A stretch of 40,349 nt of DNA from Bacteroidota bacterium (GTDB taxonomy: Bacteria; Bacteroidota; Bacteroidia; Cytophagales; Cyclobacteriaceae), in NCBI GenBank assembly GCA_027592755.1, contig JAQCLE010000029.1, positions 1 through 40,349 on the forward strand. Reading direction: 5' to 3'. The notes beneath the pieces were generated by a model. The model was not told where the DNA came from, did no database searches, and was given only the letters and a program-made list of their open reading frames with translations. The position numbers and the translations under genes were made by a program. Positions 577 to 40,342 of this stretch are shown here, piece after piece; within the stretch, counting starts at the first letter, position 1; every line of letters begins with the position of its first letter.

Positions 577-3500
577 ATGATCAAAATTCTACACCATATC
601 TTCCTGGCAATAATTATTACCATCGGGTTGACCTTTTGCCAGCAGAATAAGAAAGGTATTTTAACGCTTAAAAAAGGGAATAATATCGTTTTGGTTGGTA
701 ATAATCTCTGCTCAAGGATGATGAACTTCGGTTATTTCGAAACTGAACTTCAGCTCAGATACCCTGACAGTCTTCTTTTTATTAGGAACATATGCGATGG
801 TGGGAATACACCTGGTTTTAGACCACACTCTGCACGTAAATCCCCTTGGGCATTTCCAGGGGCAGAAGAATTTGAGCATGAATCAGGAATGAAGATTCAT
901 TTTGAGGAAGACGATGGATTTGGTCATTCAGCAACCATAGGTCATTTTGAGACACCGGATCAATGGATTACCCGTTTGAAGACTGATATTATCATTGCTT
1001 TTTTTGGTTACAATGAATCGTTCGAAGGCCCCGATGGTTTGGAAAATTATAAATCTGAACTGCAAGCTTTTATAAAGCATACTTTAAGTCAGAAATACAA
1101 TGGATCGGAACCACCTCAATTGGCGCTGGTGTCACCTATCGCTTTTGAGGACCTCTCACAAAAAATGGATTTACCAAATGGTAAAACTGAAAATAAAAAC
1201 TTAGCACTCTATACAGAAGCCATGCAAGAGGTAGCTGCCGCCAATGGTATAGCATTAGTGGATGCCTTTGGACCATCTTTAACCTGGTACACATCAGATA
1301 AAGAGGATCTTACTGCCGATGGATCACAGTTGAATGATTTTGGCTATCAAAAATTTTCGAAATTTTTAGTCGATCAGATTTTCGGAGAGACCAAAAACAA
1401 TGCAGTTGAAAACCGTCAACTTGTACTTGATGCCGTAAAGGAAAAAAATTGGTTTTGGCACAACGATTTCAAAATACCAAATGGCGTGCATGCTTATGGA
1501 AGACGTTACGACCCGTTTGGGCCTGACAACTACCCAGCAGAAATCGAGAAAATCCGTCAGATGACGGCCATACGGGATACGGCAATCTGGCAAGCTTTGA
1601 AAGGTAAAAAAATGGATTTGGCCATTAGTGATGCTCGAACCAAAATTCTTCCTCCCGTCGAAACCAACTATAAATTAAGCGAGAAAAATGGTGACCCTGC
1701 CTACTTGTATGGAGACGATGCTTTGGCGAAAATTAAAGTTGCTCCCGGCTATAAAATTGACCTCTTTGCTTCTGAAGAGGAATTCAATGATTTGGCTAAT
1801 CCGGTGCAGTTGTCATTTGACAACAAGGGCCGGCTGTGGGTAGCGGTAATGCCCAGTTACCCCCATTACAAACCAGGAGACAGCAAACCTAACGATAAGC
1901 TGATTATTCTGGAAGACACAGACGGTGATAATAAAGCCGACAAGCAAACCACTTTCGCAGATGGTTTACACCTAACCATTGGTTTTGAATTTGCTCCTGA
2001 AGGTGTCTACTTGTCTCAGGGCACCAATCTCGTCCTTTTGAAAGATACTGATGGTGATGACAAAGCTGATGTTACTGAAATCATACTCAGTGGCTTTGAT
2101 GATCACGATACTCATCACGCAATCAGTGCCTTCTGTGCTGATCCCTCCGGGGCAATCTATATGGGAGAGGGCGTTTTTCTTCATACGAATGTGGAAACAT
2201 CTTATGGGCCGGTATATGGTTCTAACGGCGGATTTTACAGGTATAGTCCGCAGAGGCACCACCTGGAAAAAACTGCGCAACTTCCAATACCCAATCCATG
2301 GGGCATAGCATTTGATGATTGGGGCCAGAATTTCTTTAGCCATACTTCCGGGCCCGATGTTACCTGGATGATGCCAGGGACAATCAAACCTCGTTATGGT
2401 GTAGGGTCACCAAATCCGGCGAACCTAATCGAACGAGAGCACCTTGTACGCCCCACTTCGGGCCTTGAATTCGTATCAAGTCGACATTTTCCCGATGATA
2501 CCCAAGGAGATTTACTTGTTAGCAATACCATTGGCTTTTTGGGAACAAAACAACATTCGATGGTTGACGACGATGCCTCGGCAGGTTATACCAGTAAACA
2601 CCATCAGGACCTGGTTTTCGCAAGCGACAAAAATTTTCGTCCAGTAGACATGGAGTTTGCTCCTGATGGCTCTCTGTATCTTATTGACTGGCACAATGTG
2701 CTTATTGGGCATATGCAGCACAATGCCCGTGATCCACTCCGCGACCATGTGCATGGAAGGGTTTACCGTATTACTTACCCTTCACGTCCACTGGTGGTTC
2801 CAGCTCAGGTGGCTGGTGCGAGCATCAAGATTTTACTGGATAATTTAAAGTTGCCAGAATACCGCACACGCTATCGTTCACGCCGGGAGCTTCGAGGACA
2901 CCCAGGTAACGAAGTTCTTGATCATCTGAAATTATGGATTTCAGAACTTGACCAGAACGACTCGAATTACGAACATTATTTGTTGGAAGCGCTATGGGTA
3001 ACATGGGGACTTAACCAAATTGATGAGTCCTTGCTGCGCCAATTACTTAATGCCAAAGATTTTAGGGCGAGGGCTGCTGCTGTTCGCGTACTCAGGTATG
3101 GAGGACATCAGATAACTGATCAACCAGATTTACTCATGCTCGCGGCACAGGACGATAATCCCCGCGTGAGATTAGAGGCACTTGTTGCTGCCTCCTGGCT
3201 TGGCAAAGTGGTGGGCCTGCCCATTGTATTAGAAGCAGGCAAAAAGGGTTTGGATAGTTGGACGGAGAAGCCTTATCAATCCGCCGTTGCACACTTAAAC
3301 GATTATAGAGCGGGGCAGGAACCAAAAGTTAGTATAAAAACCAATCTCACGGGAAAAGATCGCGAGATGTTTGAAAAGGGAAAATTGATTTATGAGAAAG
3401 AAGGGTATTGTGGTACATGCCATCAACCAGATGGCAATGGTTTAACCGCATCTGGCTTCCCTCCTCTTGCTGGAACGAAATGGACTCTTGGCAGTGAGGA

Positions 3501-3771
3501 AAGGTTAATAAAACTAACCTTGAACGGATTATTAGGTCCAATTGAAGTACTTGGTAAAGAATATCCGGGACAAGTTCCAATGACGCCATTTAGAGGATTA
3601 TTAAAAGATGATGAAATGGCAGCAGTTTTAACCTATATAAGAAACTCATTTGGCAACGAAGCTTCGGTTATATCGACTGAAAAAGTAAGTGAGATTCGTG
3701 CCAAAACAGAGAATGAAACAGGTTTTTATTCGCCAGGAGACTTACTCAAAACGCATCCACATGACAATTGA
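577..3771 (+). CDS. PVC-type membrane-bound dehydrogenase with SGNH-like and cytochrome c domains
   Basis: This 1064-residue exported protein has a hydrophobic start ending in a Cys near residue 21, lipoprotein-like but with Phe before the Cys. Residues about 36-270 form an SGNH-hydrolase-like domain that appears degenerate: block I reads GNNL without the usual Ser, and the block V site reads DGSQ where DxxH is expected. Residues about 385-760 match the putative membrane-bound dehydrogenase (beta-propeller) family and contain two DTDGD calcium-like loops. HEAT-like helices follow (about 775-905). The C-terminus is a c-type cytochrome with CGTCH near residue 945 and a possible axial Met in QVPMTP. 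It probably oxidises an organic substrate in the periplasm or outer envelope and passes electrons to its own haem. It heads the run reaching 9968. The substrate cannot be read from the sequence. Confidence 0.85.
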   Translation: MIKILHHIFLAIIITIGLTFCQQNKKGILTLKKGNNIVLVGNNLCSRMMNFGYFETELQLRYPDSLLFIRNICDGGNTPGFRPHSARKSPWAFPGAEEFEHESGMKIHFEEDDGFGHSATIGHFETPDQWITRLKTDIIIAFFGYNESFEGPDGLENYKSELQAFIKHTLSQKYNGSEPPQLALVSPIAFEDLSQKMDLPNGKTENKNLALYTEAMQEVAAANGIALVDAFGPSLTWYTSDKEDLTADGSQLNDFGYQKFSKFLVDQIFGETKNNAVENRQLVLDAVKEKNWFWHNDFKIPNGVHAYGRRYDPFGPDNYPAEIEKIRQMTAIRDTAIWQALKGKKMDLAISDARTKILPPVETNYKLSEKNGDPAYLYGDDALAKIKVAPGYKIDLFASEEEFNDLANPVQLSFDNKGRLWVAVMPSYPHYKPGDSKPNDKLIILEDTDGDNKADKQTTFADGLHLTIGFEFAPEGVYLSQGTNLVLLKDTDGDDKADVTEIILSGFDDHDTHHAISAFCADPSGAIYMGEGVFLHTNVETSYGPVYGSNGGFYRYSPQRHHLEKTAQLPIPNPWGIAFDDWGQNFFSHTSGPDVTWMMPGTIKPRYGVGSPNPANLIEREHLVRPTSGLEFVSSRHFPDDTQGDLLVSNTIGFLGTKQHSMVDDDASAGYTSKHHQDLVFASDKNFRPVDMEFAPDGSLYLIDWHNVLIGHMQHNARDPLRDHVHGRVYRITYPSRPLVVPAQVAGASIKILLDNLKLPEYRTRYRSRRELRGHPGNEVLDHLKLWISELDQNDSNYEHYLLEALWVTWGLNQIDESLLRQLLNAKDFRARAAAVRVLRYGGHQITDQPDLLMLAAQDDNPRVRLEALVAASWLGKVVGLPIVLEAGKKGLDSWTEKPYQSAVAHLNDYRAGQEPKVSIKTNLTGKDREMFEKGKLIYEKEGYCGTCHQPDGNGLTASGFPPLAGTKWTLGSEERLIKLTLNGLLGPIEVLGKEYPGQVPMTPFRGLLKDDEMAAVLTYIRNSFGNEASVISTEKVSEIRAKTENETGFYSPGDLLKTHPHDN

Positions 3772-3811
3772 TATTAGTACAATGATTAAATCTTTTTGTT
3801 GATCGATCACA

Positions 3812-4990
3812 ATGAAACTAACCAAACTACCTTTTAACTTCATTCCTATTGCCCTATTGATATTCTGTTTTAGCGGCAATATTTTTGCCCAAAGTTTAAA
3901 GAAAAACCTGTCTTTCACACCCCAACTATTGTGTATAGATAATAACGAAGCTTGTGCCATCGCTGATATTAATAAAGATGGACTGGCTGATGTAGTCGCT
4001 GGTCGACTCTGGTTTGCAACCCCTGACTTTGTCCCTCGCCCACTTCGTGCCATTGATGTTCATCCCCCGGATTATGCAAAAAACAATGGTGAACACACCT
4101 GGGATATTGATGGCGATGGTTGGCAGGATGTTGTAACCACCGGCTGGGGTGAAACCAGAATATTATGGTATAAAAACCCGGGAATTGTCGATCTAGAAAA
4201 GGGATTGCCCTGGAAAGAATACACCCTGGCTGATGTTGGTCATGGCGATGGTGAACTTGGTTCCTTTGTGGATATTAATGCCGATGGACGTCCTGAGTAT
4301 ATTGTTAATAGCTATGTCAAAACCAATCCATTCACCATTTGGCGGCTTGACAAGGATTCCAATAATGCACCAATCATGATAAGTACAGAAATCGGACCCC
4401 GAAACAGTCACGGTGTTGGCTTTGGCGATATTAACGGAGATGGCAGGACAGATATTCTTTTTGATGAAGGATGGTACGAGCAACCCAGGCAAAATATCTG
4501 GGGTGGTAACTGGTTTTGGCACCGGGACTGGAATTTGAAGGATGGAAGTTGTCCGATGCAAATAGTCGATCTTAATGGTGATGGTCGCAACGACTTTATT
4601 TGGGGGCGAGGTCACGACTATGGCCTGTATTGGTTCGAGCAGGGCCAATCCATCAAGGACGCTACTACATGGACACAACATTTAATCGATTCAACATGGT
4701 CGCAGGCTCACGCCCTATCCTGGGCCGATCTGGACAGCGACGGTCAGGATGAACTAATAACAGGCAAACGTATAAAAGCACACAGTGGCAAAGACCCGGG
4801 ATCTGATGATCCGGCATTCATCTATCGCTACATCTGGAATAAATCTCTTCAGAAATTCAATCGGGAAGAAATAGGCAAGGGCAATATTGGCACCGGACTG
4901 GTTATCAGGGTTGCTGACCTAAATAATGATGGGCGTAAGGATATTATAATGGCAGGGAAAACAGGCACCTACATTTTATGGCAGAAATGA
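3812..4990 (+). CDS. Secreted FG-GAP/VCBS repeat beta-propeller protein
   Basis: A 392-residue protein with a signal peptide ending in FAQ near residue 27. The rest is built from seven repeats with a calcium-loop signature, for example DINKDGLADVV, DIDGDGWQDVV, DINADGRPEYI, DINGDGRTDIL, DLNGDGRNDFI, DLDSDGQDELI and DLNNDGRKDII. Seven such motifs fit a seven-bladed FG-GAP propeller. Proteins of this type usually bind ligands or partners rather than catalyse reactions. It lies 40 bases after the dehydrogenase and is probably cotranscribed with it, so a substrate-binding or scaffolding role for that enzyme is a reasonable inference. Confidence 0.85.
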   Translation: MKLTKLPFNFIPIALLIFCFSGNIFAQSLKKNLSFTPQLLCIDNNEACAIADINKDGLADVVAGRLWFATPDFVPRPLRAIDVHPPDYAKNNGEHTWDIDGDGWQDVVTTGWGETRILWYKNPGIVDLEKGLPWKEYTLADVGHGDGELGSFVDINADGRPEYIVNSYVKTNPFTIWRLDKDSNNAPIMISTEIGPRNSHGVGFGDINGDGRTDILFDEGWYEQPRQNIWGGNWFWHRDWNLKDGSCPMQIVDLNGDGRNDFIWGRGHDYGLYWFEQGQSIKDATTWTQHLIDSTWSQAHALSWADLDSDGQDELITGKRIKAHSGKDPGSDDPAFIYRYIWNKSLQKFNREEIGKGNIGTGLVIRVADLNNDGRKDIIMAGKTGTYILWQK

Positions 4991-5042
4991 AAAGACTATC
5001 AATACGCAAGAAAGTTTTTTTATACAACCCAATGCTCTTCTG

Positions 5043-5813
5043 ATGGATCCGTCAATTAACTATGTTCAAAAAGGCAAAGGCATTCCATTTGTCTTCCAAC
5101 ATGGATTGGGGGCTAACATTACTCAAGCTAAGAGTTTATTTGCACCACTTAAAAATGTAACATTCATTTCAATGGATTGCCCGGGGCATGGTGCTTCTCC
5201 AATTAGTGCAACATTTGTTCCCTCATTTGATTATTATGCCAATCAATTACTCAGTTTGTTGGATTATCTTAAGGTTAAAGAAGCCATCTTCGGTGGCATC
5301 TCCATGGGTGCAGGAATTGCATTAAACATTGCCCTGAGATTTCCCGAAAGAGTCAATGCGCTGGTTTTGGTTAGGCCCGCCTGGGCAGATAAGGGCAAAC
5401 CTGAAAATCTTGCCATTTTATTGGAAGTAGCGAAAAACATGGGAAAGCAAAATGGAGTGATGGTCTATAAAGAGAATCCCGTTTTTAAGCACATAGAAAA
5501 AACACTGCCACTTGCCGCTCAATCCTTGCTGGGTCTTTTCGACCCGTCACAAAGTCCAGAGTTTCCCAGGGTGCTTCAGAAAATGGTTGAGGACAGGCCT
5601 TTTGAAGATATTGCTCAATTGCAAAAAATTAACAAGCCCTGTCTGATCATTGGCAATGATCATGATCCTCTTCACCCATTTGAAATGGCAGAACATATTC
5701 ACCAAAATATTCCAGAAAGTCGGTTATCTAAAGTAGCCTCACGATATTTGGATGAATCAGAGCATGCAAAATCAGTCAATCAATTAGTTTCAACATTTAT
5801 AGCTACACTATGA
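5043..5813 (+). CDS. Alpha/beta hydrolase
   Basis: A 256-residue soluble hydrolase of the alpha/beta fold with no signal peptide. The oxyanion region is near FQHGLG, the nucleophile elbow GISMG places Ser at residue 87, the acid is probably an Asp in GNDHDP, and the catalytic His is probably in SEHAK near the C-terminus. Its stop codon overlaps the next gene's start as ATGA (5810-5813), so the two are probably translationally coupled. In an operon with a dehydrogenase upstream and an aldolase downstream, lactone opening or ester hydrolysis on a sugar-acid intermediate is a plausible role, but this is inference. Confidence 0.85.
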   Translation: MDPSINYVQKGKGIPFVFQHGLGANITQAKSLFAPLKNVTFISMDCPGHGASPISATFVPSFDYYANQLLSLLDYLKVKEAIFGGISMGAGIALNIALRFPERVNALVLVRPAWADKGKPENLAILLEVAKNMGKQNGVMVYKENPVFKHIEKTLPLAAQSLLGLFDPSQSPEFPRVLQKMVEDRPFEDIAQLQKINKPCLIIGNDHDPLHPFEMAEHIHQNIPESRLSKVASRYLDESEHAKSVNQLVSTFIATL

Positions 5814-7780
5814 AGAGCATTTGGAAGGAGAATGAAGCCAAGAAGTTCAAAGGCAACCTGCTCAAACTGAGAGTTTATACCTCGCAATTATTGGGTAAAA
5901 ATGAGGATTTAGTAATGCACGGGGGAGGTAACACTTCAGTGAAAATCAATGAGAAAAACATATTCGGAGAGAAAGAAGACATACTTTATGTAAAAGGAAG
6001 TGGCTGGGATCTAGGTACAATCGAAGCTGCAGGTTTTGCCCCCGTCAAACTAAAGGCGCTTCAACAGCTTGCTGATTTAGATTCTTTGACCGATGTCGAA
6101 ATGGTCAAATACCAACGCATGGCCATGACGGACCCAGCGGCTCCAAATCCATCAGTTGAAGCTATATTGCATGCCATAATTCCGTACACCTTTGTCGATC
6201 ATACCCATGCCGATGCGGTGGTAACAGTAACCAATACCCCTGGTGGTAAAGAGAGAATTGAAGAAATCTATGGTGAGAAAATACTGATTATTCCATATGT
6301 CATGCCTGGCTTTATTTTGGCCAAAGAAATTTATAACATGACCAAAGGGATTGATTGGGACAAGTTGGATGGAATGATTTTAATGAACCACGGCGTATTC
6401 ACTTTTCACAATGATCCAAAAGTCAGCTATGAAAAGATGATTGCCATCGTCTCAAAATCGGAAGGATACTTAAAGAAACAAAGCGCCACTCCCATAAAAG
6501 GTACTTCGGGCCGTAAAATCAATACCCTTCATATTGCTGACATCAGAAAGCAAGTTTCTGAAATTTGGGGAAAGCCCGTTTTGACAAGAACTGATGATTC
6601 TTCGGAGTCTGTTGCCTTTAGTAATCTACCGGATGTAAAAAAAATAGTTAATCGTGGGCCTCTGACACCGGATCATATCATCCAGACAAAAAGAACCCCC
6701 GTGGTTGTTACCAACAACTTTGAGAAAGACCTATCTGACTATGTCAAAGACTATCTGGATTATTTTGATAAAAACAATACAGGTGAACAAACATTATTGG
6801 ATCAGGCACCTCGATGGGCAATTGTACCAGGTTCAGGATCATTGTCTTTTGGGCCAACAGCCAAAAACCTGACTATTATTGAAGATATCAATCGTCATAC
6901 GAAGAAAGCGATTTACCAGGCTGAAAAACTTGGTGGCTGGAAACCCCTTGGCAAGGCAGACTTATTCGAAATGGAATACTGGAGCCTGGAACAGGCAAAA
7001 CTCAAGAAAGCCGGGAGTAGTAAGCCAATGGAAGGTAAAATTGCGTTAGTAACCGGTGCAGCAAGTGGAATCGGTAAAGCCTGCGTTGAAAGTCTGGTTG
7101 CTGCTGGAGCAGTTGTAGGGGCCATCGATATCGATCCATCAATCAGGACCACTTTCAAAAAGAAAGAGATTCTTGGAATTCAATGTGATGTCACGAGTGA
7201 GAAACAGCTGAGAATTACAATTGAGAAAATTGTTGCTCAGTTCGGGGGAATAGACATGATCATCAGCAGTGCAGGTATTTTCCCCAAAAGCACCAGAATT
7301 GAAAATATGGAAACTAAATTATGGGAAAAGAGTCTTGAGATTAATGTCAGCAGTCATCAAAAGCTTATACAATTGTGTGTCCCTTACCTCAAATTGGGTT
7401 TCGACCCTTCAGTCGTAATTATCGGATCAAAAAATGTTGCTGCGCCAGGCCCTGGAGCTGCCGCTTATTCAGTAGCCAAAGCAGGGTTGGCTCAATTGGG
7501 AAGAGTAGCTGCTCTTGAACTCGGAGAAAATGGAATTCGTGTTAATACAATTCATCCGAATGCTGTTTATGACACTGCCATTTGGACTGATGAAGTATTG
7601 AAAACCAGGGCGAAACATTATAAATTGACTGTGAAAGAGTATAAAACGAACAATGTACTTAAAGTTGAAGTGACATCGAAAGATGTGGCTGATTTGGCAG
7701 TCAGCATGTTAGGAAAGACATTCTCAAAAATTACCGGGGCACAGGTACCTATTGATGGAGGGAATGACAGGGTTATATAG
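5810..7780 (+). CDS. Bifunctional class II aldolase / short-chain dehydrogenase
   Basis: A 656-residue fusion enzyme. Residues about 15-230 are a class II (fuculose/rhamnulose-type) aldolase: HGGGNTSVK is the phosphate-binding segment and the metal ligands are H131 and H133 in HTHAD plus H194 in NHGVF. Residues about 405-656 are an NAD(P)-dependent SDR with TGAASGIG and the YSVAK active site (Y553, K557). The layout matches RhaD-like aldolase/alcohol dehydrogenases, which cleave a ketose phosphate and oxidise the released aldehyde. No rhamnose isomerase or kinase is nearby, so the substrate is probably not plain rhamnose. It overlaps the upstream hydrolase by four bases. Confidence 0.88.
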   Translation: MKSIWKENEAKKFKGNLLKLRVYTSQLLGKNEDLVMHGGGNTSVKINEKNIFGEKEDILYVKGSGWDLGTIEAAGFAPVKLKALQQLADLDSLTDVEMVKYQRMAMTDPAAPNPSVEAILHAIIPYTFVDHTHADAVVTVTNTPGGKERIEEIYGEKILIIPYVMPGFILAKEIYNMTKGIDWDKLDGMILMNHGVFTFHNDPKVSYEKMIAIVSKSEGYLKKQSATPIKGTSGRKINTLHIADIRKQVSEIWGKPVLTRTDDSSESVAFSNLPDVKKIVNRGPLTPDHIIQTKRTPVVVTNNFEKDLSDYVKDYLDYFDKNNTGEQTLLDQAPRWAIVPGSGSLSFGPTAKNLTIIEDINRHTKKAIYQAEKLGGWKPLGKADLFEMEYWSLEQAKLKKAGSSKPMEGKIALVTGAASGIGKACVESLVAAGAVVGAIDIDPSIRTTFKKKEILGIQCDVTSEKQLRITIEKIVAQFGGIDMIISSAGIFPKSTRIENMETKLWEKSLEINVSSHQKLIQLCVPYLKLGFDPSVVIIGSKNVAAPGPGAAAYSVAKAGLAQLGRVAALELGENGIRVNTIHPNAVYDTAIWTDEVLKTRAKHYKLTVKEYKTNNVLKVEVTSKDVADLAVSMLGKTFSKITGAQVPIDGGNDRVI

Positions 7781-7842
7781 CCTCAAACAAGGGACTATTA
7801 GAAATATGGGCCTATTCCAATTTAAATTTTTAATTGACAAAC

Positions 7843-8709
7843 ATGATTGTACCACGAACATCGAGAGAAGAAATACTCCGAAAGCTTAGAAAAAAAGTTG
7901 AGGACCGAATTCCGATTTACATTGCGAGTGCCGGAAGTGGGCTTGTAGCCAAACTATTGGAAAAAGCTGGCGTTGACTGCATCAATACCTTTTCAGGAGC
8001 CCGTCTTAGAGCAAACGGCATGGGCACAATGTCGATGTTGTGGCCAATACTGGATTCCAATAAGCAAACAATGGATTACACACGTGAAGACATCATGCCG
8101 GCCATCAAGGGTGATTCATTTATTTGTGCCTGTCTGAATGCCAACGACCCATTAAAAGATATGAGAATGGTATTGAACGATTGTAAGGCGATGGGAGTAT
8201 TCTCTGCCTCGAACATTGGCCCCTCCATTAGTTACGTGGATAAAGACAGTGAAATATTCAAAGTGCTTACCAAGAGCGGAATAACGCTCGATAATGAAAT
8301 TGAAATGCTGAAACTGGCTAAAGAAATGGATATGGTTTCAATTGGCCTGGCTTTTAACACCGAAGACAGTCTTCGAATAATGGAAGAAGCCCAGCCAGAT
8401 ATCTTTTGTTTCCATGCCGGTACTACAAAAGGAGGTCTTTCAGGGTATGATTCCGGAGAAACCATAGAACAAACTACGGCTCGAACTGAGGAAGCCAATC
8501 AGCAGTTACGAAAGATAAAGCCGGATGTAATGCTGATTGCCCATGGGGCAGCAATGGAAGACCCGGATGACGCACAGTACATTCTCAATAATACAAGTTG
8601 CGACGGTATCTGGACCGGGTCGTCAACGGAGCGCATTCCCATTGAAAAAGCAGTGTTTGAAACAGCCCGGAAATTCGCTGATTTGAGATTTACGGATAGT
8701 AAGAACTAA
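7843..8709 (+). CDS. Phosphoenolpyruvate hydrolase-family TIM-barrel protein
   Basis: A 288-residue cytoplasmic protein of the PEP_hydrolase/TIM-barrel family, recognised from IPIYIASAGSGLVAK near the start, CFHAGTTKGGLSGY in the middle and IAHGAAMEDP and GSSTERIPIE towards the end. The family is distantly related to PEP mutase/isocitrate lyase barrels and is often encoded beside, or fused to, UPF0261/Tm-1-like domains; the next gene here is exactly that. I chose the ATG at 7843 (MIVPRTSREE) over a TTG three codons upstream. The true reaction of the family is poorly established. Together with the upstream aldolase it may process a C3 or C4 carboxylate, which is inference. Confidence 0.82.
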   Translation: MIVPRTSREEILRKLRKKVEDRIPIYIASAGSGLVAKLLEKAGVDCINTFSGARLRANGMGTMSMLWPILDSNKQTMDYTREDIMPAIKGDSFICACLNANDPLKDMRMVLNDCKAMGVFSASNIGPSISYVDKDSEIFKVLTKSGITLDNEIEMLKLAKEMDMVSIGLAFNTEDSLRIMEEAQPDIFCFHAGTTKGGLSGYDSGETIEQTTARTEEANQQLRKIKPDVMLIAHGAAMEDPDDAQYILNNTSCDGIWTGSSTERIPIEKAVFETARKFADLRFTDSKN

Positions 8710-8735
8710 TAATCAAGGCAACAAGCCTCTATCAA

Positions 8736-9968
8736 ATGAAAAAAACAATCGCCTTACTCGTCACTTTAGATACTAAAGATCAGGAAGCCGGATTTTTGAA
8801 AGAGCAAATCGAGGGCATGGGTCACAATGCCTTGCTCCTGGATATAGGAATTGTAGCAGAAGCTGGTATAAAAGCTGACATATCAAGAGAAGAGGTTGTA
8901 TCAACCGGCGGGGGCTCCCTGAAGGAGTTGTTGAAAGATCCCACGAGAGAAAAAACAAACCCCTTCGTTGTCCATGGATGCATTAATATTCTAACTCAAA
9001 AAATTGCATCGAATGAAGTCCATGCTGTTCTGGGCTTGGGCGGAACCCAAGGTACTTCCACTTGTTGTGACGTTATGCAGGCCCTACCATTCGGCTTTCC
9101 CAAAATCATGGTTTCTACGATGGCTTCTGGTAACACTTCAGAATTCGTTGGCATCAAGGACATTACGATGATGTTTTCGGTGAGTGACATTTTAAAGCTC
9201 AATCCTTTTACCAGGAAAGTACTGGCCAATGCAGCTGCAGCTGCTTGTGGGATGGCTGAAGTAGAGACCAAATTCGCAATGGAAAAAGGCGATAAACCTC
9301 TCATCGGAATGTCTAACCTGGGGGTATTGACCAACGGCGCCATGGAAGCCATAAAATACATTGAAGCCGCTGGCTATGAAGTTATCGTATTTCATGCTGT
9401 GGGATCAGGTGGCCGAGCCATGGAACAAATGATGAAGGAAGGGATTATTGGGGCTGTCTTCGACTACGCCATGGGGGAAATCGCCGACGATGTTTGGAAA
9501 GTCCTACGGGCGGGCGGGCCCGAACGTTTGACAGTCGCAGGCAAGCTGGGTTTACCGCAAGTGTTATGTCCAGGAGGTGCTGAACATCTCGGTATATTGG
9601 TTGCTCACGATGAAGTTCCGGAGGCTTATAAAAACCACAAATACGTTTTCCACAGCCCTATAATTTTCGTACCAAGATTAAATGCTGATGAAATTAAACG
9701 AGTAGCAGATGACATCATCAAGCGACTTCAACACACAGCTGATAAAGCTTATTTTATGATCCCTAAAGGTGGAGTTGGAAGATATTCCATTAAAGGCGGG
9801 GTTTTAGAAGATAAAGAATCCGATCAGGCCTTTTTTAATCAATTGAAGGCAGGATTGCCAAAAAATATTATTGTTGTCGAAAGAGATCTTCCCGCTGAAG
9901 ATCCCGCTTTTGTAAAAGAAGCAGTCGATTTATTGATCAGTTTGATTGAGGAAAGAAAAGTTCACTAA
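8736..9968 (+). CDS. UPF0261 / Tm-1-like ATP-binding domain protein
   Basis: A 410-residue cytoplasmic protein of the UPF0261 family, related to the N-terminal ATP-binding part of tomato Tm-1. Its start, LLVTLDTKDQEAGFLKEQI, is characteristic, as are the Gly-rich GLGGTQGTS segment, the STMASGNT stretch and the later FHAVGSGGRAMEQM segment. It lies 26 bases after the PEP-hydrolase-family gene, the usual partner, and ends the operon. Family members are predicted to bind ATP and may activate a carboxylate or sugar acid, but I know of no firmly assigned reaction for the bacterial pair. The next gene is convergent, 27 bases away. Confidence 0.85.
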   Translation: MKKTIALLVTLDTKDQEAGFLKEQIEGMGHNALLLDIGIVAEAGIKADISREEVVSTGGGSLKELLKDPTREKTNPFVVHGCINILTQKIASNEVHAVLGLGGTQGTSTCCDVMQALPFGFPKIMVSTMASGNTSEFVGIKDITMMFSVSDILKLNPFTRKVLANAAAAACGMAEVETKFAMEKGDKPLIGMSNLGVLTNGAMEAIKYIEAAGYEVIVFHAVGSGGRAMEQMMKEGIIGAVFDYAMGEIADDVWKVLRAGGPERLTVAGKLGLPQVLCPGGAEHLGILVAHDEVPEAYKNHKYVFHSPIIFVPRLNADEIKRVADDIIKRLQHTADKAYFMIPKGGVGRYSIKGGVLEDKESDQAFFNQLKAGLPKNIIVVERDLPAEDPAFVKEAVDLLISLIEERKVH

Positions 9969-17196: not shown

Positions 17197-18510
17197 ATGA
17201 AAATCTTCAGTTCCATCAGGTCAATCAATTTCGCAACATTTCACCTCTTGGGTCGACCATTTCTATTCATTTTTATCTTTATCCTTATCCCCGGATGTTC
17301 AGTTGAACAAAATTTTCATCACTCTGATGTCGAAATAGCAGGTCTTGATGATGAGATAGCTAAACACAGAAAAGGATTGTTACAAGTACAAACCAACCCG
17401 GGAGATAAGGTATTGGTTGAACAACTGAGCCATGACTTCTGGTTTGGGGCGGCCATAAGCAATGGCATTGCGGGGAATTATATGTCGGATGATGACAAAA
17501 AACAGTACAAGGAGAAATTCCTGGAGAACTTTAACTCGGCTGTTACTGAAAATGCTGTGAAGTGGGGAAACATGGAACGCAATAAAGGGGCAGTCAATTA
17601 TGCAACGGTTGATGCCATATTGAATTGGACGGAAGTAAACAATATACCACTAAGGGGTCACAACATTTTCTGGGGAATTCCAAAGTTTGTGCAACCTTGG
17701 CTAAAAGAATTGAGTGACAATGAATTGCGACAAACATTACAAAATCGAGCCGAATCGCTAACTGCAAAATACAAAGGTCGTTTTGCGGAGTATGACCTGA
17801 ACAATGAGATGATTCATGGCAACTACTATCAAGATCGCCTGGGCCCGGACATTACAAAACTTATGGCAGATTGGGCACAAAATGGAGACCCTGATATTAA
17901 ACTATATCTGAATGATTATGATATTCTGACAGGCAACAGACTGGATGATTATATGGCTCAAATCAGACAGTTATTAAAACAGGGTGTTCCAATTGCGGGA
18001 ATTGGTGTCCAGGGGCATTTACATACGGAAACGTTCGACCGAAATGAGCTCAAACGGTCATTGGATTCATTGGCAATTTTTAATTTACCTATCCGGGTCA
18101 CAGAATTCAACATGCCTGGTCAGCGGTCTGCCTATCATCGGCAGGAAATCACAGAAATGACTGCCGAAGAAGAACAGTTTAAAGCGAAAGAAATTGTCGA
18201 TTATTACAAGATATGTTTTGCTCATCCGGCTGTGGAAGGCATCCTTATGTGGGGATTTTGGGCCGGAGCTAACTGGGTCCCGGTCTCATCGCTTTACAAC
18301 CGAGACTGGTCTCCTACTCCCTCAGTTGAAGCATACCAAAACCTTATCTTCAAGGAGTGGTGGACCAAAGAGTCTGGCACAGCGGATGATTCGGGTTTGG
18401 TTTCAGTTCCGGCTTTTTATGGAAAATACAGAGTCACGGTAAATGGTATGGCAAAAGAGGTGCAAATGACCAGAACATCCGGTGGATTGTTCGTGGATTT
18501 TAGAAAATAA
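17197..18510 (+). CDS. GH10 endo-1,4-beta-xylanase, lipoprotein
   Basis: A 437-residue lipoprotein: a long hydrophobic leader ends in LIPGC, a lipobox near residues 31-35, so it is probably anchored in the envelope. The GH10 barrel is clear. DLNNEM places the acid/base Glu at residue 204 and the nucleophile Glu is residue 303 in RVTEFNMPG. GHNIFWG, WLKELSDNELR and GVQGHLH are further GH10 landmarks. The last 60 residues after the barrel form a small beta-rich tail common in Bacteroidota members. It should cleave internal beta-1,4-xylosidic bonds. There is no SusC/D pair nearby, so it is not in a classical PUL. Confidence 0.92.
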   Translation: MKIFSSIRSINFATFHLLGRPFLFIFIFILIPGCSVEQNFHHSDVEIAGLDDEIAKHRKGLLQVQTNPGDKVLVEQLSHDFWFGAAISNGIAGNYMSDDDKKQYKEKFLENFNSAVTENAVKWGNMERNKGAVNYATVDAILNWTEVNNIPLRGHNIFWGIPKFVQPWLKELSDNELRQTLQNRAESLTAKYKGRFAEYDLNNEMIHGNYYQDRLGPDITKLMADWAQNGDPDIKLYLNDYDILTGNRLDDYMAQIRQLLKQGVPIAGIGVQGHLHTETFDRNELKRSLDSLAIFNLPIRVTEFNMPGQRSAYHRQEITEMTAEEEQFKAKEIVDYYKICFAHPAVEGILMWGFWAGANWVPVSSLYNRDWSPTPSVEAYQNLIFKEWWTKESGTADDSGLVSVPAFYGKYRVTVNGMAKEVQMTRTSGGLFVDFRK

Positions 18511-22910: not shown

Positions 22911-24038
22911 ATGAATCGCTCCAACCTACTCTTTGTGATCACACTTTGCTTCATTATTGGATGCAAACAGGAAGTTCCAGAAGAAAAGCCTGCTGGAAAA
23001 GTTATTATCGGTTACGTTCCCGGATTTCGGGGGGCAATCGATGAAAACACCATCGATGCCAACAAATTGACACACATCAATTATGCATTTGTTAATTGTA
23101 TTGACAGCCTCGCAGTACTATCAAATTTGGAAACAGATACTGCTAACTTTAGAAGGCTTAATAACCTTAAAAAGATCAATCCTGACCTGAAAATATTAAT
23201 ATCCATCGGTGGCTGGGGCTGGAGCGACTACTTTTCAGATGCCGTCCTAACTCCCAGCTCTCGACTGATGTTTGCCCAAAGCAATATTCAAATTGTTGAG
23301 GACCATAATCTTGATGGAGTTGACATCGACTGGGAATATCCGGGCCAGCGAGGCCAGGATAATGTTTTCCGGCCAGAGGACAAAGAGAATTACACCTTAA
23401 TGTTTAAAGTCATTCGGGAAGAATTGGATAAACTATCTGAGCGGACGGGAAAAACCTATCTTTTGACAACAGCAGTTGGCGCTTCACAACGCTATATCGA
23501 CAATACAGAAATGGACAAAGCCCAGGAATACCTCGATTACGTAAACCTGATGACCTACGATTTTTATACTTCGGGCGACTCCTCCGGGCATCATACCAAT
23601 CTTTACCCTCCATCAAATTATGACAAGGATAGATCAGCCCACAAAACAGTGGACATATTTGTAGCTGCCGACGTTCCTGTAGAAAAACTCGTCATGGGCA
23701 TCGCTTTCTATGGCAGGTCATGGTATATTATAAGTGGTGAGAATCGCGGTATTAATATGCCTAATGATTCAACTGCACGAGGCGGTGGCTATTCATTTAT
23801 CAAAGACAGCCTGGTGAACCAAAGAGGATTCACAAGATACTGGGATGAAAATGCCAAGGCACCTTACCTCTTTAATAGTGAGACTAATCAACTGGTTTCG
23901 TATGATGATGAAGAATCGGTTAGGTATAAGTGTGAGTATACCATTGAAAAAAATATGGCCGGAGTGATGTTCTGGCAATATGCCAGTGACCCTAAAGAAT
24001 ATTTGGTTACTGCCATTAATCAAAGTTATAAGCAATAA
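22911..24038 (+). CDS. GH18 chitinase-like lipoprotein
   Basis: A 375-residue lipoprotein (lipobox IIGC, Cys near residue 18). The GH18 signature DGVDIDWEYPG places the catalytic Glu at residue 142, with the two upstream Asp (D138, D140) present. Supporting GH18 landmarks are HINYAFVNC, KILISIGGWGWS, NLMTYDFY, MGIAFYGRSW and the closing GVMFWQYASD. It should cleave chitin or related N-acetylglucosaminyl polymers. The next gene is a second GH18 protein nine bases away, so the two are one transcription unit. Confidence 0.92.
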   Translation: MNRSNLLFVITLCFIIGCKQEVPEEKPAGKVIIGYVPGFRGAIDENTIDANKLTHINYAFVNCIDSLAVLSNLETDTANFRRLNNLKKINPDLKILISIGGWGWSDYFSDAVLTPSSRLMFAQSNIQIVEDHNLDGVDIDWEYPGQRGQDNVFRPEDKENYTLMFKVIREELDKLSERTGKTYLLTTAVGASQRYIDNTEMDKAQEYLDYVNLMTYDFYTSGDSSGHHTNLYPPSNYDKDRSAHKTVDIFVAADVPVEKLVMGIAFYGRSWYIISGENRGINMPNDSTARGGGYSFIKDSLVNQRGFTRYWDENAKAPYLFNSETNQLVSYDDEESVRYKCEYTIEKNMAGVMFWQYASDPKEYLVTAINQSYKQ

Positions 24039-24046
24039 CGAAACCT

Positions 24047-25267
24047 ATGAGAGGCCTTCTAATTAACATTCGTTACTTGGGCATATTATTCCTGCTTTTT
24101 ATTGGAACATCATGTGCCAAAGATTCCAAAAAAGAAGCAAATGAGCAGTTTGCTGAAGACACCAGGTTCAAAGTGGTTGGTTACATCACAGCTGGCGCTT
24201 TTGATTTGATTGATCAGATTGAGCTCAACAGACTTACCCACCTGGATCTTGCATTTTTGAATCCTGATGATGAAGGAAACCTGGTTTTTAGCCAGGGGAA
24301 AGATATCAAGAGTGTAGTCGCAAAAGCCCATGCTGCAAACGTGGAGGTTTTTATTTCGATCGCGGGAGGAGGATCTGGAGATGAACCCAGGGACAAATGG
24401 AACATGGTGCTCCAACCTGAAAAGCGGTCAGCTTTCATTGACAAGTTAATGGACTATGTTGCCGATAATGATCTGGATGGTATTGATGTAGATATTGAAT
24501 GGAATATCCTCCCAACAATTGGTTCGAATTATACACCCTTTGTCCTGGAGCTAAGGGATCATCTGCATGCGAAAGGAAAATCAATCTCAACCGCTCTCCC
24601 TGGAACGGCATTGCATGAAGCTGTAACCCAGGAATCGCTGGAAGCCTATGATTTTATTAACGTGATGGTTTATGACGCTACCGGACCCTGGCGTCCTGAT
24701 AAACCTGGCCATCACTCAACCTACGAATTCGCCGAAGCTGCGGTGTCTTTCTGGTTAGAAGAAAAAAAGATTCCGGCGAGTCGATTAGTGCTTGGCATGC
24801 CTTTTTATGGTTATGATTTTGGTACTGAAAGGGTATCGTCAAAATCGTATGGCCAAATTGCAGAAAACAATACAGCTGATGCCTATCGTGATGAAATTGA
24901 TCAACTGTATTACAATGGTATACCGACAATCGTTAAGAAAACTCAACTGGCTCTATCCAAATTTAATGGGGTGATGTTCTGGCAATTAGGCCATGATGCT
25001 TTTAACAACATGTCGTTGCTTGCATCGGTGGATCAGGTTATTCAAGCTAAAGATTGCAAGGGAATAACATCCACTTTCTTTGCTGACTCTGACGGAGATG
25101 GATTTGGCGATATCAGTAAACCCTTTCAGAGCTGCACTTCTCCGGAGGGATATGTTACCAATAATACAGACTGTGATGACTCCAATGCGAACATCAATCC
25201 CAATGCCGAGGATCTGATGGATGGCATTGACAATAATTGCAATAGCACAATTGATGATGAGTCTTAG
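24047..25267 (+). CDS. GH18-like lipoprotein with MopE-type calcium/metal-binding tail
   Basis: A 406-residue lipoprotein (lipobox GTSC near residue 24). The GH18 motif is DGIDVDIEWN, catalytic Glu at residue 151, with D147 and D149 kept. NVMVYDATG, LGMPFYGYDFG and GVMFWQLGHD support the fold; the layout resembles ChiA/ChiD-like or endo-N-acetylglucosaminidase members more than the tandem neighbour. After the barrel, residues about 345-406 form a Cys-rich acidic tail with DSDGDGFGD and NTDCDDSNANINPNAED, the MopE-like putative metal-binding motif often seen in surface proteins. The gene starts nine bases after the first GH18 gene. Confidence 0.88.
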   Translation: MRGLLINIRYLGILFLLFIGTSCAKDSKKEANEQFAEDTRFKVVGYITAGAFDLIDQIELNRLTHLDLAFLNPDDEGNLVFSQGKDIKSVVAKAHAANVEVFISIAGGGSGDEPRDKWNMVLQPEKRSAFIDKLMDYVADNDLDGIDVDIEWNILPTIGSNYTPFVLELRDHLHAKGKSISTALPGTALHEAVTQESLEAYDFINVMVYDATGPWRPDKPGHHSTYEFAEAAVSFWLEEKKIPASRLVLGMPFYGYDFGTERVSSKSYGQIAENNTADAYRDEIDQLYYNGIPTIVKKTQLALSKFNGVMFWQLGHDAFNNMSLLASVDQVIQAKDCKGITSTFFADSDGDGFGDISKPFQSCTSPEGYVTNNTDCDDSNANINPNAEDLMDGIDNNCNSTIDDES

Positions 25268-32224: not shown

Positions 32225-32257
32225 TTTGTAATCAGGTTTATATCTTGGCTATCTTTG
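32225..32257 (+). promoter_or_regulatory. Bacteroidota-type promoter for the 32285 gene
   Basis: TATCTTTG at 32250-32257 is an exact TAnnTTTG -7 match; TTTG at 32225-32228 serves as the -33 element with a 21-base spacer, at the long end of the usual range. The predicted start lies around 32263, about 22 bases before the ATG. Confidence 0.5.
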
Positions 32258-34251: not shown

Positions 34252-35488
34252 ATGCAGGATTTGTTAAAAAATATTAGACATGATCTGCCAGCCAGTATCA
34301 TTGTTTTCTTTGTTGCTGTTCCCCTATGCCTGGGTATTGCGCTTGCTTCCGGTGCTCCACTATTTGCTGGAATAATTTCGGGCATTGTTGGTGGTATCGT
34401 TGTTGGAATTGTAAGTGGTTCCCCACAAGGAGTCAGTGGACCAGCCGCTGGATTAGCCGTTATTGTTTTGACTTCAATTAACTAGATTGGCTCGTATGAT
34501 GCATTTTTGGTTGCAGTTGTGATAGCCGGCGTCATTCAACTTTTGCTGGGTTATGCCAAAGCCGGTTTCATCGCATACTTTTTTCCGTCCTCCGTGATAA
34601 AGGGCATGCTAACCGGGATTGGCCTGCTCATAATTCTTAAACAAATACCACACGCACTGGGTTGGGATAAAGATGCTTTTGGCGATTCGTCCTTTTTTCA
34701 GTTGGATGGTGAAAATACCTTCTCTGAAATTTTTAAGGCAATTGACTCTATAGCTCCGGGAGCTTTTCTTATCGCGTCAATATCAATGGCTATTTTGATA
34801 TTATGGGAGGCGATTCTGACTAAAAAATATAAAGTGTTCCGAATCATAAACGGTCCGCTTGTTGTCGTGATCGTGGGTATTTTCATGAATTATCTTCATC
34901 AAAAAGGAATATTGAATTTCAGTTTTGGCTGCCGAACAAGTAGTGAGTATTCCAGTTCCAGAAAATTTCGCCGGATTTGTTAACCAGTTTACATTTCCTG
35001 ATTTTTCAGCATTGGCCAATTATGAAATCTATACAGTCGGCATCGTTCTGGCCGTAGTAGCCAGTCTTGAAACGCTACTCTGTGTTGAAGCAACTGATAA
35101 AATGGACCCGGATAAAAGAATCACTCCCACCAATAGAGAATTAAAGGCTCAAGGAATTGGCAATATTGTCTCGGCCCTCATCGGAGGGCTTCCGGTTACT
35201 CAGGTTATCGTTCGAAGTTCTGCTAATATTTCTTTTGGGGGAAAGACCAAATTATCAGCAATCTTTCATGGAATTTTCTTGCTACTCAGTGTGCTGACAA
35301 TTGCTAATGTCCTAAATATGATTCCTTTAGCCAGTCTGGCGGTAATTCTAATATTAGTTGGATACAAATTAGCCAAACCCTCACTTTTCATAACAATGTT
35401 CAAATTAGGATGGGAGCAGTTTATGCCTTTTGTTGCCACAATTGTGGCCATCCTTGCTACAGATTTATTAAAAGGAATTACGGTTGGG
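34252..35488 (+). pseudogene. SulP-family anion transporter (copy A), multiply disrupted
   Basis: The frame encodes a SulP transporter closely matching the intact copy at 38056, with [20 protein letters not shown] at the start. It is broken in three ways: a TAG at 34483-34485 after VLTSIN, in the same frame as what follows; one extra T in the TTTT at 34923-34926, which shifts the frame before AAEQVVSIPVPEN; and loss of the C-terminus after GITVG at about 35488, where an IS3 transposase remnant begins. Members have 10-14 helices and carry sulfate, bicarbonate or other anions; this copy cannot make a full protein. The product most like it is the bicarbonate/sulfate group, with a beta-carbonic anhydrase gene downstream. 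Confidence 0.88.
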
Positions 35489-36012
35489 GTTGGTATTACT
35501 TGTCCACAGTACTGGATGATTACAGTCGTTACGTAGTGGGCTGGTAGCTCTGTAAAGGCATGAAAGCACAAGATGCCGAGAGTACAGTTCGCAAAGCATT
35601 AATGCATGCCGGTATACCTAAAGGCAAACGCCCCAAGCTGCTCAGCGACAACGGGAGCAGCTACATTGCCGATGAGTTCAAAACCTTTTTAAAGGATGAA
35701 GGAATCCAACCGATTCATGGAAGGGTATGTCATCCGCAGACGCAAGGTAAGATTGAGCGCTTCAATCGTAGTCTTAAAAACAGGATCAAGTTGGATAACT
35801 ACTACAGTCCGGAAGAATTGGAGAGAGCTATCGAGAAGTTCATTTACTACTACAACTACCAGCGTTACCATGAATCCATCAATAACCTTACACCTGCGCA
35901 GGTATACTATCACAAAGGAGAACGCGTATTGGACAAAAGAAGAAAAACAAAAATCAGAACAATGAACAGAAGAAGAAAACTCAATCAGCGTGTCGCAGTT
36001 AAAAGAGAATAG
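35482..36012 (+). mobile_element. IS3-family transposase (orfB) remnant
   Basis: About 176 codons match the C-terminal rve integrase part of an IS3-family orfB: GWGWYYLSTVLDDYSRYVVGW with the first Asp of the DDE triad, LLSDNGSSYIADEF with the second Asp, and HPQTQGKIERFNRSLKNR with the Glu. The frame has a TAG at 35545-35547 (GW-stop-LCKGM) and lacks orfA and the start of orfB, so it cannot move. The segment from the ATG at 35560 to the TAG at 36010-36012 is open. Its left edge fuses to the SulP copy A frame across GGTTGGG at 35482-35488, with a microhomology that suggests a deletion. No terminal inverted repeats could be defined. Confidence 0.85.
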
Positions 36013-36686: not shown

Positions 36687-38032
36687 ATGAAATATAATGA
36701 GGAAACCTTAGCAGGTAGACTACGGTTCTATTTAAACCCTTTCGACAACCGCTATGAGGATTTGACGAAAGGAAGCCTGACCGGAAATATTATCAAAGAT
36801 CTGACAGCCGGGTTAATTGTAGCCATGGTTGCCATACCCATGGCAATGGGCTTTGCAATGGCTTCTGGCTTGCGACCGGAGCAAGGAATCGTTGGAGGCG
36901 CAGTTGCGGGATTGCTTGGGGCACTATTTGGAGGCTCAAAAATCAGGTCTACGGACCCACAGCAGCATACATTCCAATTATTGGCGGACTAATGGCAACG
37001 TATAGTCATGGATTTTTAATTCTTGTATCCATTATTGCTGGAATTTTTTTAATGATTAGTGGAGTTGCAAAACTTGGAAGGTTTATTGCTAAAGTTCCAA
37101 ACTCAATTGTTGTTGGATTTACCGCGGGAATAGCCGTAGTGATTGCCTTTTCTCAAATGGGTGAGGTGCTTGGATATGAAAGTAAAGTTGGATTAGTGCT
37201 TGATGAACAGATTAAAAATATAATGGACCTTTCCCATCAGTTCAATCCCTTTGCTTCATTTATTGCCATTGGTACATTTTTTATTTGTCGCTTTTCAAAG
37301 AAGATTTCTGCTTTTCTTCCAGGGCCATTGATTGCACTCGGCCTCGGCCTTTTAGCGGCTGAAACATTTTGGGCTGGGAAAGAATTGGTTTTGATTAAGG
37401 AAAAATATGGTTCGATCCCAACTAACTTCCTTGAGTTCACAACACCTGCTCTGCCAGAAACCTGGAGTATTCAGGTTATTTTTGACCTGGTATATTATGT
37501 AGTGGCAATCTATTTTGTAGCGGCAGTCGAAAGTCTATTATGCTCCCGCATGGCCGACCGTCTTGCCAATAATAAAGGCACGCCATTCAATCCCAACAAA
37601 GAATTTTGGGGACAGGGAATGGTGAACATTATCACTCCACTATTTAATGGCTTCCCTCACACTGGTGCTTTAGCAAGAACAGCGGTGAGCATTAAGCTAG
37701 GAGCTGTTTCTCCCTTAGCCGGAATTGCAAAATTTACTTTTAAACTTATTTTAGCGGCATTTCTTGCCACCTATTTAGAGGATGTTCCGATGGCGTGTAT
37801 TGGAGGCATTTTACTTTACGTTGCTACTAATATGGTGAAAGTGGATGAGCTGAAGGAAATCTTCAATATGAAGAGCAACATTCATCTCATGCTTATGATT
37901 TATACCGCTGTAATGTTACCGTTCTTTGGGTTCCTTACAGCAGTGCTAAGTGCACTCGCGATATATATCGTTGTAATTTTTTTCAAGGAGAGTAGTGTCA
38001 TACAAAAATTCGATAAGGCTCAACTATTTTAA
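36687..38032 (+). pseudogene. SulP-family anion transporter (copy B), one-base frameshift
   Basis: A SulP transporter of about 448 residues without a STAS domain, ending in YIVVIFFKES and a short tail. The first 100 or so codons (through GALFGGS) are in one frame; the rest, from QVYGPTAAYIPIIGGLMATY onwards, is in another. The break is at the AAAAA run, 36938-36942, where one more A (reading TCA AAA AAT CAG) would restore the frame through a conserved GPTAA segment. The ATG at 36992 could still give a 346-residue fragment. It differs clearly from copies A and C in sequence, so it is a separate paralogue. Likely substrates are bicarbonate or sulfate. Confidence 0.85.
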
Positions 38033-38055
38033 TAAAACAAACATAATTTTTAGGA

Positions 38056-39633: not shown

Positions 39634-40342
39634 ATGAGAACACTAACTAAAGAACTTAGTTAGAGATTTAATTACCCCGAAAGAGGCTGTAGAAATTCTG
39701 AAAAAAGGGAATCAGCGTTTTGTAGGCAATCTTAAGATGAATCGGAATTTGTTGCAACAAATTAACGAAACTTCGGAAGGGCAGCATCCTTTCGCTGTGA
39801 TTTTGAGCTGTATTGATTCGCGGACATCTGCGGAACTGATTTTTGATCAGGGCCTCGGAGATGTTTTTAGTTTCAGAATAGCTGGAAAGGTACAAAATGA
39901 GGATATTCTTGGCAGCATGGAATTCAGTTGCAAGGTGGCTGGAGCTAAAGTTGTAGTTGTGCTTGGTCATACAAAATGTGGTGCAGTTAAAGGAGCTTGT
40001 GATGATGTTAAAATGGGAAACGTGACAACGTTATTAAAAAAATTGAAGCCAGCAATTGAAGCAGAGAAATCAACTACCAATGAGCGCAATTCACGTAATG
40101 TTGAGTACGTTGAAAAAGTAGCTTCACTCAATGTGAGAATTACCAATCAACAGATTTTGAAAAACAGCTCTATTCTAAAGGACATGGTGATGAAAGATGA
40201 GATCGCAGTGATCGGAGGTATGTACAATGTTGAGACCGGTGTGGTTGATTTTTATGAGGATGAATTAATTACATCTGAAACCTTAACCCGCATTATTCAT
40301 AGGCTAACATTTATTCAATCAACAGGCCGATACATATTGTGA
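39634..40342 (+). pseudogene. Beta-carbonic anhydrase, frameshifted near its start
   Basis: A beta-class carbonic anhydrase. The zinc ligands are in SCIDSRTSAEL (Cys, with the Asp-Arg dyad) and LGHTKCGAVKGAC (His and Cys). The expected start is the ATG at 39634 (MRTLTKE), but that frame ends at a TAG at 39661-39663. The family sequence continues in another frame from about 39650 (KNLVRDLITPKEAVEILKKG), so one base is extra or missing between 39640 and 39660. An in-frame ATG at 39737 would give 201 residues lacking the N-terminal helix but keeping the zinc site, so some activity may remain. It is 12 bases after SulP copy C. CO2 hydration would feed or use bicarbonate moved by the transporter. 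The stop lies seven bases before the window end. Confidence 0.88.

Follow-up and report, generated by a model that had tools for sequence, protein, structure and literature searches.

Tm-1 is a plant virus-resistance protein that joins a UPF0261 domain, its N-terminal half, to a TIM barrel. According to PMC5028733, bacteria, archaea and fungi have the UPF0261/TIM-barrel pair, and almost every sequenced land plant has it as a fusion. An ordinary role for the pair was stated in no paper that we found, and a literature search for Tm-1 with ToMV-Hel returned no paper. A further family member, Saro_1862 of Novosphingobium aromaticivorans, is titled a UPF0261 domain protein with bound acetovanillone in structure entry 9mpy. 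Acetovanillone catabolism in this organism begins with a single-component kinase, MarK, according to a 2026 paper; searches gave nothing on MarK beyond PMC13101465, and no paper on the Saro_1862/9mpy protein. PMC13406360, PMC12790356 and PMC6867892 contributed no further information. Here we describe a cluster of six genes, A to F, in a Bacteroidota bacterium of the Cyclobacteriaceae (assembly GCA_027592755.1, contig JAQCLE010000029.1), which holds relatives of both halves of Tm-1 next to a class II aldolase. The whole stretch analysed, 40,349 bases, is referred to as the window.

The window is one entire contig (C60) of a 4.2 Mb draft genome listed as 98% complete. The first-pass annotation had reported six tightly spaced genes on one strand, and the open reading frame (ORF) list bears this out: six close-packed plus-strand ORFs span 577-9968, with intergenic gaps from A to F of 40, 52, -4, 62 and 26 bases (the E start taken as 7843), the negative value being the previously noted ATGA overlap of C and D. 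Gene A (577-3771) encodes an envelope protein, presumably a dehydrogenase, with an SGNH-like domain, a DUF7133/PVC-type propeller, HEAT and a cytochrome c domain carrying CGTCH, and B (3812-4990) encodes an FG-GAP propeller. Gene C (5043-5813) codes for an alpha/beta hydrolase and D (5810-7780) for a class II aldolase fused to a short-chain dehydrogenase (SDR), of the NF006196 subfamily. They are followed by E (7834-8709, with an ATG at 7843), a PF09370 TIM barrel whose presumed substrate is a phosphorylated intermediate, and F (8736-9968), which carries the N- and C-terminal UPF0261 domains and is presumed to be an ATP-dependent small-molecule kinase. Domains were called with Pfam and NCBIfam profile cut-offs, and the calls agree with the domain content annotated earlier, the SGNH-like domain of A being new. 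We consider the cluster to be a real and conserved operon, one gene smaller than first described, and a probable catabolic module of kinase and aldolase in which the kinase would be of an unusual kind. It probably breaks down a sugar-like compound, and parts of it recur in distant bacteria. In agreement with the earlier remark that no described pathway has exactly this set, we found no paper on the gene set in the open-licence literature.

Conservation of the gene set

Relatives were located by a contig scan with F, and the best 80 of 188 loci were surveyed. The close set (L040-L079) comprises 40 loci with F at 70-86% identity, nearly all Bacteroidota by title and many of them Saprospiraceae; its nearest named member is a Cytophagales metagenome-assembled genome (L040, 86%). 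The distant set (L080-L119) comprises 40 loci with F at 57-64% identity, about half from Planctomycetota and the remainder from Bacteroidetes, Gemmatimonadota, Acidobacteriota, Rhodothermales and others. Neighbours were counted by tblastn up to 8 kb from F, the denominators include loci truncated at a contig end, and the aldolase counts take in only D-like and c7-like types, so that other aldolases are missed.

This gene-neighbourhood search, which the first-pass annotation had proposed as a check, revealed that 78 of the 80 loci (all but L097 and L116) have E as the immediate upstream neighbour of F, on the same strand. The aldolase domain of D was found near F in 32 of the 40 close loci, on the same strand in 28. 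Among the close loci without it, L061, L070 and L075 have a D fragment at the contig start, L053, L057 and L071 have only ~1 kb upstream, and L055 and L065 lack D despite ample room. The distant set contains the D aldolase domain in 5/40 loci, at 36-49% identity, and a standalone class II aldolase (cluster c7; Aldolase_II at 48.7 bits in one member scanned) adjoins F in 8/40, seven times convergently and once on the same strand. The pair also stands beside an aldolase/SDR in a cultured relative, Sediminicola luteus HQA918 (L072), where the order is D-E-F-creatininase.

The gene order A-C-D-E-F was observed in two other species (L045 and L048), C-D-E-F preceded by an A truncated at the edge of the contig in the sister species (L040), and C-D-E-F-A in L064 and L068. 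B is absent from all of these; only 19 bases separate A and C in the sister species. A B-like gene was detected near F in just one of the 80 loci (30% identity, opposite strand), and B was dropped as a pathway member because it is not conserved there. C lies on the same strand near F in 14/40 close loci and 1/40 distant loci, and the SGNH half of A is present in 12/40 and 18/40, respectively. The conserved set of frequent neighbours is thus A, C, D, E and F, with B accessory, and the earlier view of all six genes as one catabolic operon holds for these five, which are conserved and probably catabolic, but not for B. Judged from sequence, recurrence of the set across species in which F has diverged to 57-86% identity is more than chance.

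In a draw across the phylum, UPF0261 was present in 28/395 genomes and D over its cut-off in 5/395, and F lay within 1 kb of D in all five D genomes (our own included, the other four from one genus). The chance of finding all five NF006196-positive genomes within the 28 UPF0261-positive ones of 395 is p ~1.3e-6, a value that is not an independent test because four of the five genomes are of one genus and the fifth is our own. Among 59 relatives, UPF0261 occurs in nine (own included) and D over cut-off in four, of which our own genome and G001 carry it with F. Over all draws, D is linked to F in six of the eight distinct genomes with D over cut-off. By coordinates, F comes before D in G356, G368, G407 and G431, so the order of the steps is not fixed by gene order.

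The encoded proteins

F scored 182.8 bits against PF06792 and 184 bits against PF23189 (cut-offs 27 and 27) and belongs to UPF0261. Its structure model (mean pLDDT 86.7) matched the Tm-1 entries with Z 39.2-40.3, a root-mean-square deviation (rmsd) of 3.3-4.1 and 386-391 aligned residues, and 9mpy with Z 31.6, rmsd 7.5 and 392 aligned; the next best fold beyond these entries reached only Z 12.3. We defined the family invariants as 32 residues identical in 55 aligned bacterial UPF0261 sequences. F keeps them, D12, K14, H220 and E248 among them, the N-terminal half of tomato Tm-1 keeps all of them (32/32), and 9mpy keeps 26/32. In a midpoint-rooted tree of 48 UPF0261 sequences, F fell in a clade of 20 rows (support 100/100), and Tm-1 grouped with the Rhizobium, Sinorhizobium, Vibrio and G005 pairs in another, five-member clade (100/100); the Pseudosulfitobacter, Thermus and Bradyrhizobium rows were flagged as too long to place. 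From these sequence relationships F appears as a cousin of both MarK and Tm-1 and a member of neither clade. Because UPF0261 includes Saro_1862, which is probably MarK, F is better read, by family, as a kinase that uses ATP and precedes the aldolase in the route; a probable kinase relative in UPF0261 thereby speaks against the late, small-carboxylate role first assigned to the last two proteins.

E matched the PF09370 profile, PEP_hydrolase-like, with 197.8 bits (cut-off 33.8). "PEP hydrolase" is a family name, and we did not find a tested activity behind it. The E model (mean pLDDT 84.3) is closest to 2p10, titled putative phosphonopyruvate hydrolase (Z 31.3, rmsd 2.4, 253 aligned), which keeps 32/33 of the E family invariants; the next matches were tryptophan synthase alpha (TrpA), indole-glycerol-phosphate synthase and triosephosphate isomerase at Z 18.9-20.1. 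The substrates of these three barrels are phosphorylated, and the model suggests the idea that E acts on a phosphorylated compound as well. We make no claim for a likeness, noticed by eye, of conserved E loops to the TrpA phosphate site. No phosphoenolpyruvate (PEP) mutase or phosphonopyruvate hydrolase structure besides 2p10 was among the 50 matches listed, which excludes nothing. Separately, PF00290 (tryptophan synthase alpha) had no match in our own genome and matched in 20 of the 23 genomes searched; its absence may be either a loss or a gap in the draft.

D exceeded the equivalog cut-off for the NF006196 bifunctional aldolase/SDR (943.5 vs 831 bits) and fell below that for RhaD (TIGR02632; 401.3 vs 567.75). 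A separate RhaD scoring 945 bits, over the cut-off, is encoded on contig C54 of the same genome, followed by a rhamnose-isomerase-like gene (TIGR02629, 483.5 vs 646.75; TIGR02635, 399.7 vs 531.35) and a rhamnulokinase-like gene (TIGR02627, 55.6 vs 527.95). Both of these are under their cut-offs, so the case for a rhamnose operon at C54 leans mainly on RhaD; RhaA (PF06134) had zero matches in the genome. D is 29% identical to the C54 RhaD over 688 positions and retains its HxH, HG and GGGNTS motifs, which have roles in metal and phosphate binding. Because D scores below the RhaD cut-off and the genome has an over-cut-off RhaD elsewhere, D is by sequence scores not RhaD. A rhamnose operon was rejected as an account of the cluster on these two grounds, and, as had been noted from the outset, neither rhamnose isomerase nor rhamnose kinase was found among the six operon proteins with Pfam and NCBIfam.

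A exceeded the domain cut-off for TIGR02604 (PVC-type heme-binding CxxCH protein; 207.3 vs 122.2 bits) and carries its heme motif, CGTCH, at residue 945. Its N-terminus gave an SGNH-like match of 29 bits, below the Pfam cut-off of 32.9. When A was compared with the canonical SGNH/GDSL hydrolase motifs, the catalytic Ser of block I and His of block V were lacking: the two positions are Asn and Gln, within GNNL and GSQL in the window protein, and both residues are replaced in the ten window-type A homologues examined, the window included. Because of these replacements, a binding role is more likely for the domain than esterase activity. The description of C as lactonase-like fared poorly, its top NCBIfam match, PcaD (TIGR02427, 3-oxoadipate enol-lactonase), reaching 83.7 bits against an equivalog cut-off of 255.85.

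Proposed route, neighbours and rival explanations

We rate it an even prospect that the operon encodes the breakdown of a carbohydrate-type compound, with a kinase and an aldolase at the centre of the route. In such a route, A would oxidize the compound in the envelope and hand the electrons to its own cytochrome c domain, and C would hydrolyze an ester or lactone. F would then phosphorylate the product with ATP, a step for which an FGGY or DUF1537 sugar(-acid) kinase is usual. The phosphorylated intermediate would be rearranged or cleaved by E, and the aldolase half of D would split a phosphorylated intermediate, with the SDR half oxidizing the freed aldehyde. What the analysis establishes is the gene content, the family memberships, the conservation of E-F and D-E-F, the difference of D from RhaD by score and the predicted folds of E and F. 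Phosphorylation followed by class II aldol cleavage is the classical order in sugar catabolism, and in bifunctional RhaD the SDR half oxidizes the aldehyde released by the aldolase half. The proposal is supported by the repeated occurrence of F beside class II aldolases (D-like in the 32 close and five distant loci, standalone in eight distant loci, and another in Thermus) and by the resemblance of the E model, after 2p10, to barrels with phosphorylated substrates.

The neighbours of F in relatives are a further source of support. Clusters recurring in the 80 loci include ThuA (16), sulfatase (8), xylose-isomerase-like barrels (7 and 4) and creatininase (5), the last directly after F in L054, L056, L060 and L072. 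In other Bacteroidota, more distant UPF0261 clades have SusC/D, 3-keto-disaccharide hydrolase, Dabb, cupin or ThuA as neighbours. The carbohydrate-like members of this company (ThuA, the xylose-isomerase-like barrels and 3-keto-disaccharide hydrolase) favour a carbohydrate-type substrate. An Akkermansiaceae locus (L105, 7549-16023) holds C-E-F, an LsrF-type thiolase (425.6 vs a cut-off of 297 bits), a ribulose-phosphate-epimerase-like gene, the SDR half of D, and A; the thiolase and the epimerase-like gene both belong to families of phosphorylated substrates, again in line with the route. This locus has the lone SDR half instead of the fused aldolase/SDR and may offer a clue to the substrate. 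In L078 (6659-9339), an ORF overlaps the end of F by four bases on the same strand and is called a sulfatase from the L064 member of its cluster, a hint of a sulfated substrate in that species.

Plasmids yielded nine regions from 341 records. Their E-F pairs neighbour ABC transporters, cupin or pyruvate kinase. Where F has no E annotated beside it, it accompanies a class II aldolase (Thermus), aldehyde dehydrogenase (Pseudosulfitobacter) or biotin carboxylase (Sphingobium). On the Thermus thermophilus plasmid (L154, 8116-13821), creatininase, UPF0261, class II aldolase and tripartite tricarboxylate transporter genes lie in a row without E. The Sphingobium yanoikuyae plasmid (L155, 3992-9449) encodes a UPF0261 protein 66% identical to 9mpy, with no E annotated adjacent, among biotin carboxylase subunits, a HAD-like protein and a 3-keto-5-aminohexanoate cleavage protein. 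By analogy, these neighbours recall the Hpe pathway with its kinase, carboxylase and phosphatase (PMC9618137), and L155 may be a portable hydroxyphenylethanone-type cluster. Taken together, UPF0261 keeps mostly carbohydrate-like company, and aromatic catabolism comes in with the branch of Saro_1862.

Several observations weigh against the proposed route. Neither a D- nor a c7-type aldolase was found near F in 27/40 distant loci, several of them cut short, and the plasmid relatives of F have mixed neighbours, some of aromatic type. Two relatives, G038 and G008, have D without UPF0261: in G038, D sits among unrelated ORFs, and in G008 (83% complete) the contig has C and D and ends 1.7 kb past D, with no ORF of at least 120 aa between. 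The first-pass annotation had named non-conservation of the combination as grounds for abandoning its proposal; A, C, D, E and F are conserved, yet D lacks UPF0261 in two of the eight D genomes. Because DUF7133/cytochrome genes are common in genomes of this kind, A may lie near F by chance in some loci, and no transporter is present in the operon. E had been considered as a relative of TrpA, which has a like fold, and this was given up when a profile comparison found no relation (probability 2.6%, with a TrpA alignment of only six sequences). For F, the identity of Saro_1862 with MarK is one that we infer; F is ~28% identical to 9mpy, which departs at six of the 32 invariant positions, and Saro_1862 and its Sphingobium relative form a separate clade (100/100) on a long branch.

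Reversing the steps, such that aldol cleavage comes first and a small carboxylate is afterwards processed by E (a PEP-/phosphonopyruvate-hydrolase-like barrel) and F (an activating enzyme that uses ATP), would fit the PF09370 family name, the title of 2p10 and the position of E and F after D. However, those hydrolase names are predictions, the best-studied relative of F appears to be a pathway-starting kinase, and F precedes D in the four genomes given above; we consider this order unlikely. The varied company of the pair (ABC transporters, cupin, pyruvate kinase), the occurrence of a lone F beside creatininase or biotin carboxylase subunits, the solitary D of G038, and the naming of E as a signal-transduction domain in PMC5028733 would all suit a regulatory or general metabolite-repair pair that is carried in many operons, with D, C and A independent of it. 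That explanation is quite unlikely in our judgement: the linkage of F to aldolases is repeated in several phyla, and UPF0261 is patchy (28/395 phylum genomes), unlike a housekeeping function.

The remaining explanation makes D a second 6-deoxyketose-phosphate aldolase, of rhamnulose or fuculose type, in a deoxysugar operon to which E and F are unrelated. Although the full-length 29% identity and the shared motifs agree with it, the sub-threshold RhaD score of D, the presence of a true-scoring RhaD beside isomerase-like and kinase-like genes at C54, and the linkage of D to E-F in 32/40 loci make it improbable.

The surroundings of the operon can be described briefly. A convergent ORF downstream of F ends at 9995, and only 577 bases lie between the operon and the edge of the contig, where the view of upstream genes stops. 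Between 200 and 11400, promoter-like sites numbered 31 against 26.5 (standard deviation, sd, 5.5) in shuffles and terminator-like sites 8 against 10.5 (sd 3.6), with no excess of either; a Bacteroidota-type promoter pattern matched once in the window (2.65 expected), at 32225, away from the operon. Translations inspected by eye contain a xylanase-like ORF and two adjoining chitinase-like ORFs (17197-18510 and 22911-25267), so the contig holds other polysaccharide-related genes. SulP-like transporter ORFs, likewise recognized by eye, are repeated at 34507-35536, 35560-36012 and 36992-39621, with one copy split across two overlapping frames, a transposase-like ORF and then more SulP-like ORFs, followed by a carbonic-anhydrase-like ORF (39737-40342); the repeat is either a real duplication or an assembly artefact.

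Comparison with known systems

The interest of the cluster is moderate and lies mainly in making the function of the Tm-1 pair testable. We tentatively propose, as a possibility on the doubtful side, that UPF0261 and its TIM barrel constitute a widespread two-enzyme module, an ATP-dependent kinase and a barrel working on the phosphorylated product, which feeds class II aldolases in the catabolism of sugar derivatives, and that Tm-1 would thus be a metabolic enzyme recruited for defence. If this were true, the operon would show the reaction class to seek for the Tm-1 pair. Because the pair adjoins an aldolase/dehydrogenase with intact-looking motifs, also in the cultured Sediminicola luteus, its reaction can be sought with few purified proteins. 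Should F prove to be a kinase, sugar-type catabolism would gain a kinase family, and what Tm-1 ordinarily does would be within reach.

Tomato Tm-1 has both the UPF0261 and the TIM-barrel parts, all 32 of the F invariants and the fold of F (Z 39-40). The plant protein is a single fusion (PMC5028733), whereas E and F are separate ORFs 26 bases apart, and Tm-1 groups with the Rhizobium, Sinorhizobium and Vibrio pairs outside the window clade. Saro_1862, the probable MarK, shares with F the family, the two-domain fold and 26/32 invariants, but F lies outside its long-branched clade. The Sphingobium relative of Saro_1862 (66% identical) occurs with biotin carboxylase subunits and no adjacent annotated E; in contrast, the window operon has E and an aldolase/SDR, and biotin carboxylase genes, a feature known from this one relative, were not found among the six window proteins.

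The Hpe/Acv hydroxyphenylethanone pathway, in which MarK serves in N. aromaticivorans, starts with an ATP-dependent phosphorylation (PMC9618137). Its kinase in Rhodococcus, HpeHI, belongs to another family, so the pathway supports the logic of the proposed route and not the protein. Pfam and NCBIfam showed neither a carboxylase nor a known beta-keto hydrolase among the six window genes. Bifunctional RhaD is, like D, a fusion of a class II aldolase and an SDR with common motifs, but D scores under the RhaD cut-off in a genome with a separate RhaD and is linked to E-F instead of rhamnose isomerase and kinase. Finally, the Otn threonate/erythronate module pairs the kinase OtnK with the class II aldolase OtnC. 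It follows the same kinase and class II aldolase logic, and a xylose-isomerase-like barrel is sometimes near F (seven loci); its DUF1537-type kinase, however, has no Pfam match among the six window proteins, and the window aldolase is fused to an SDR.

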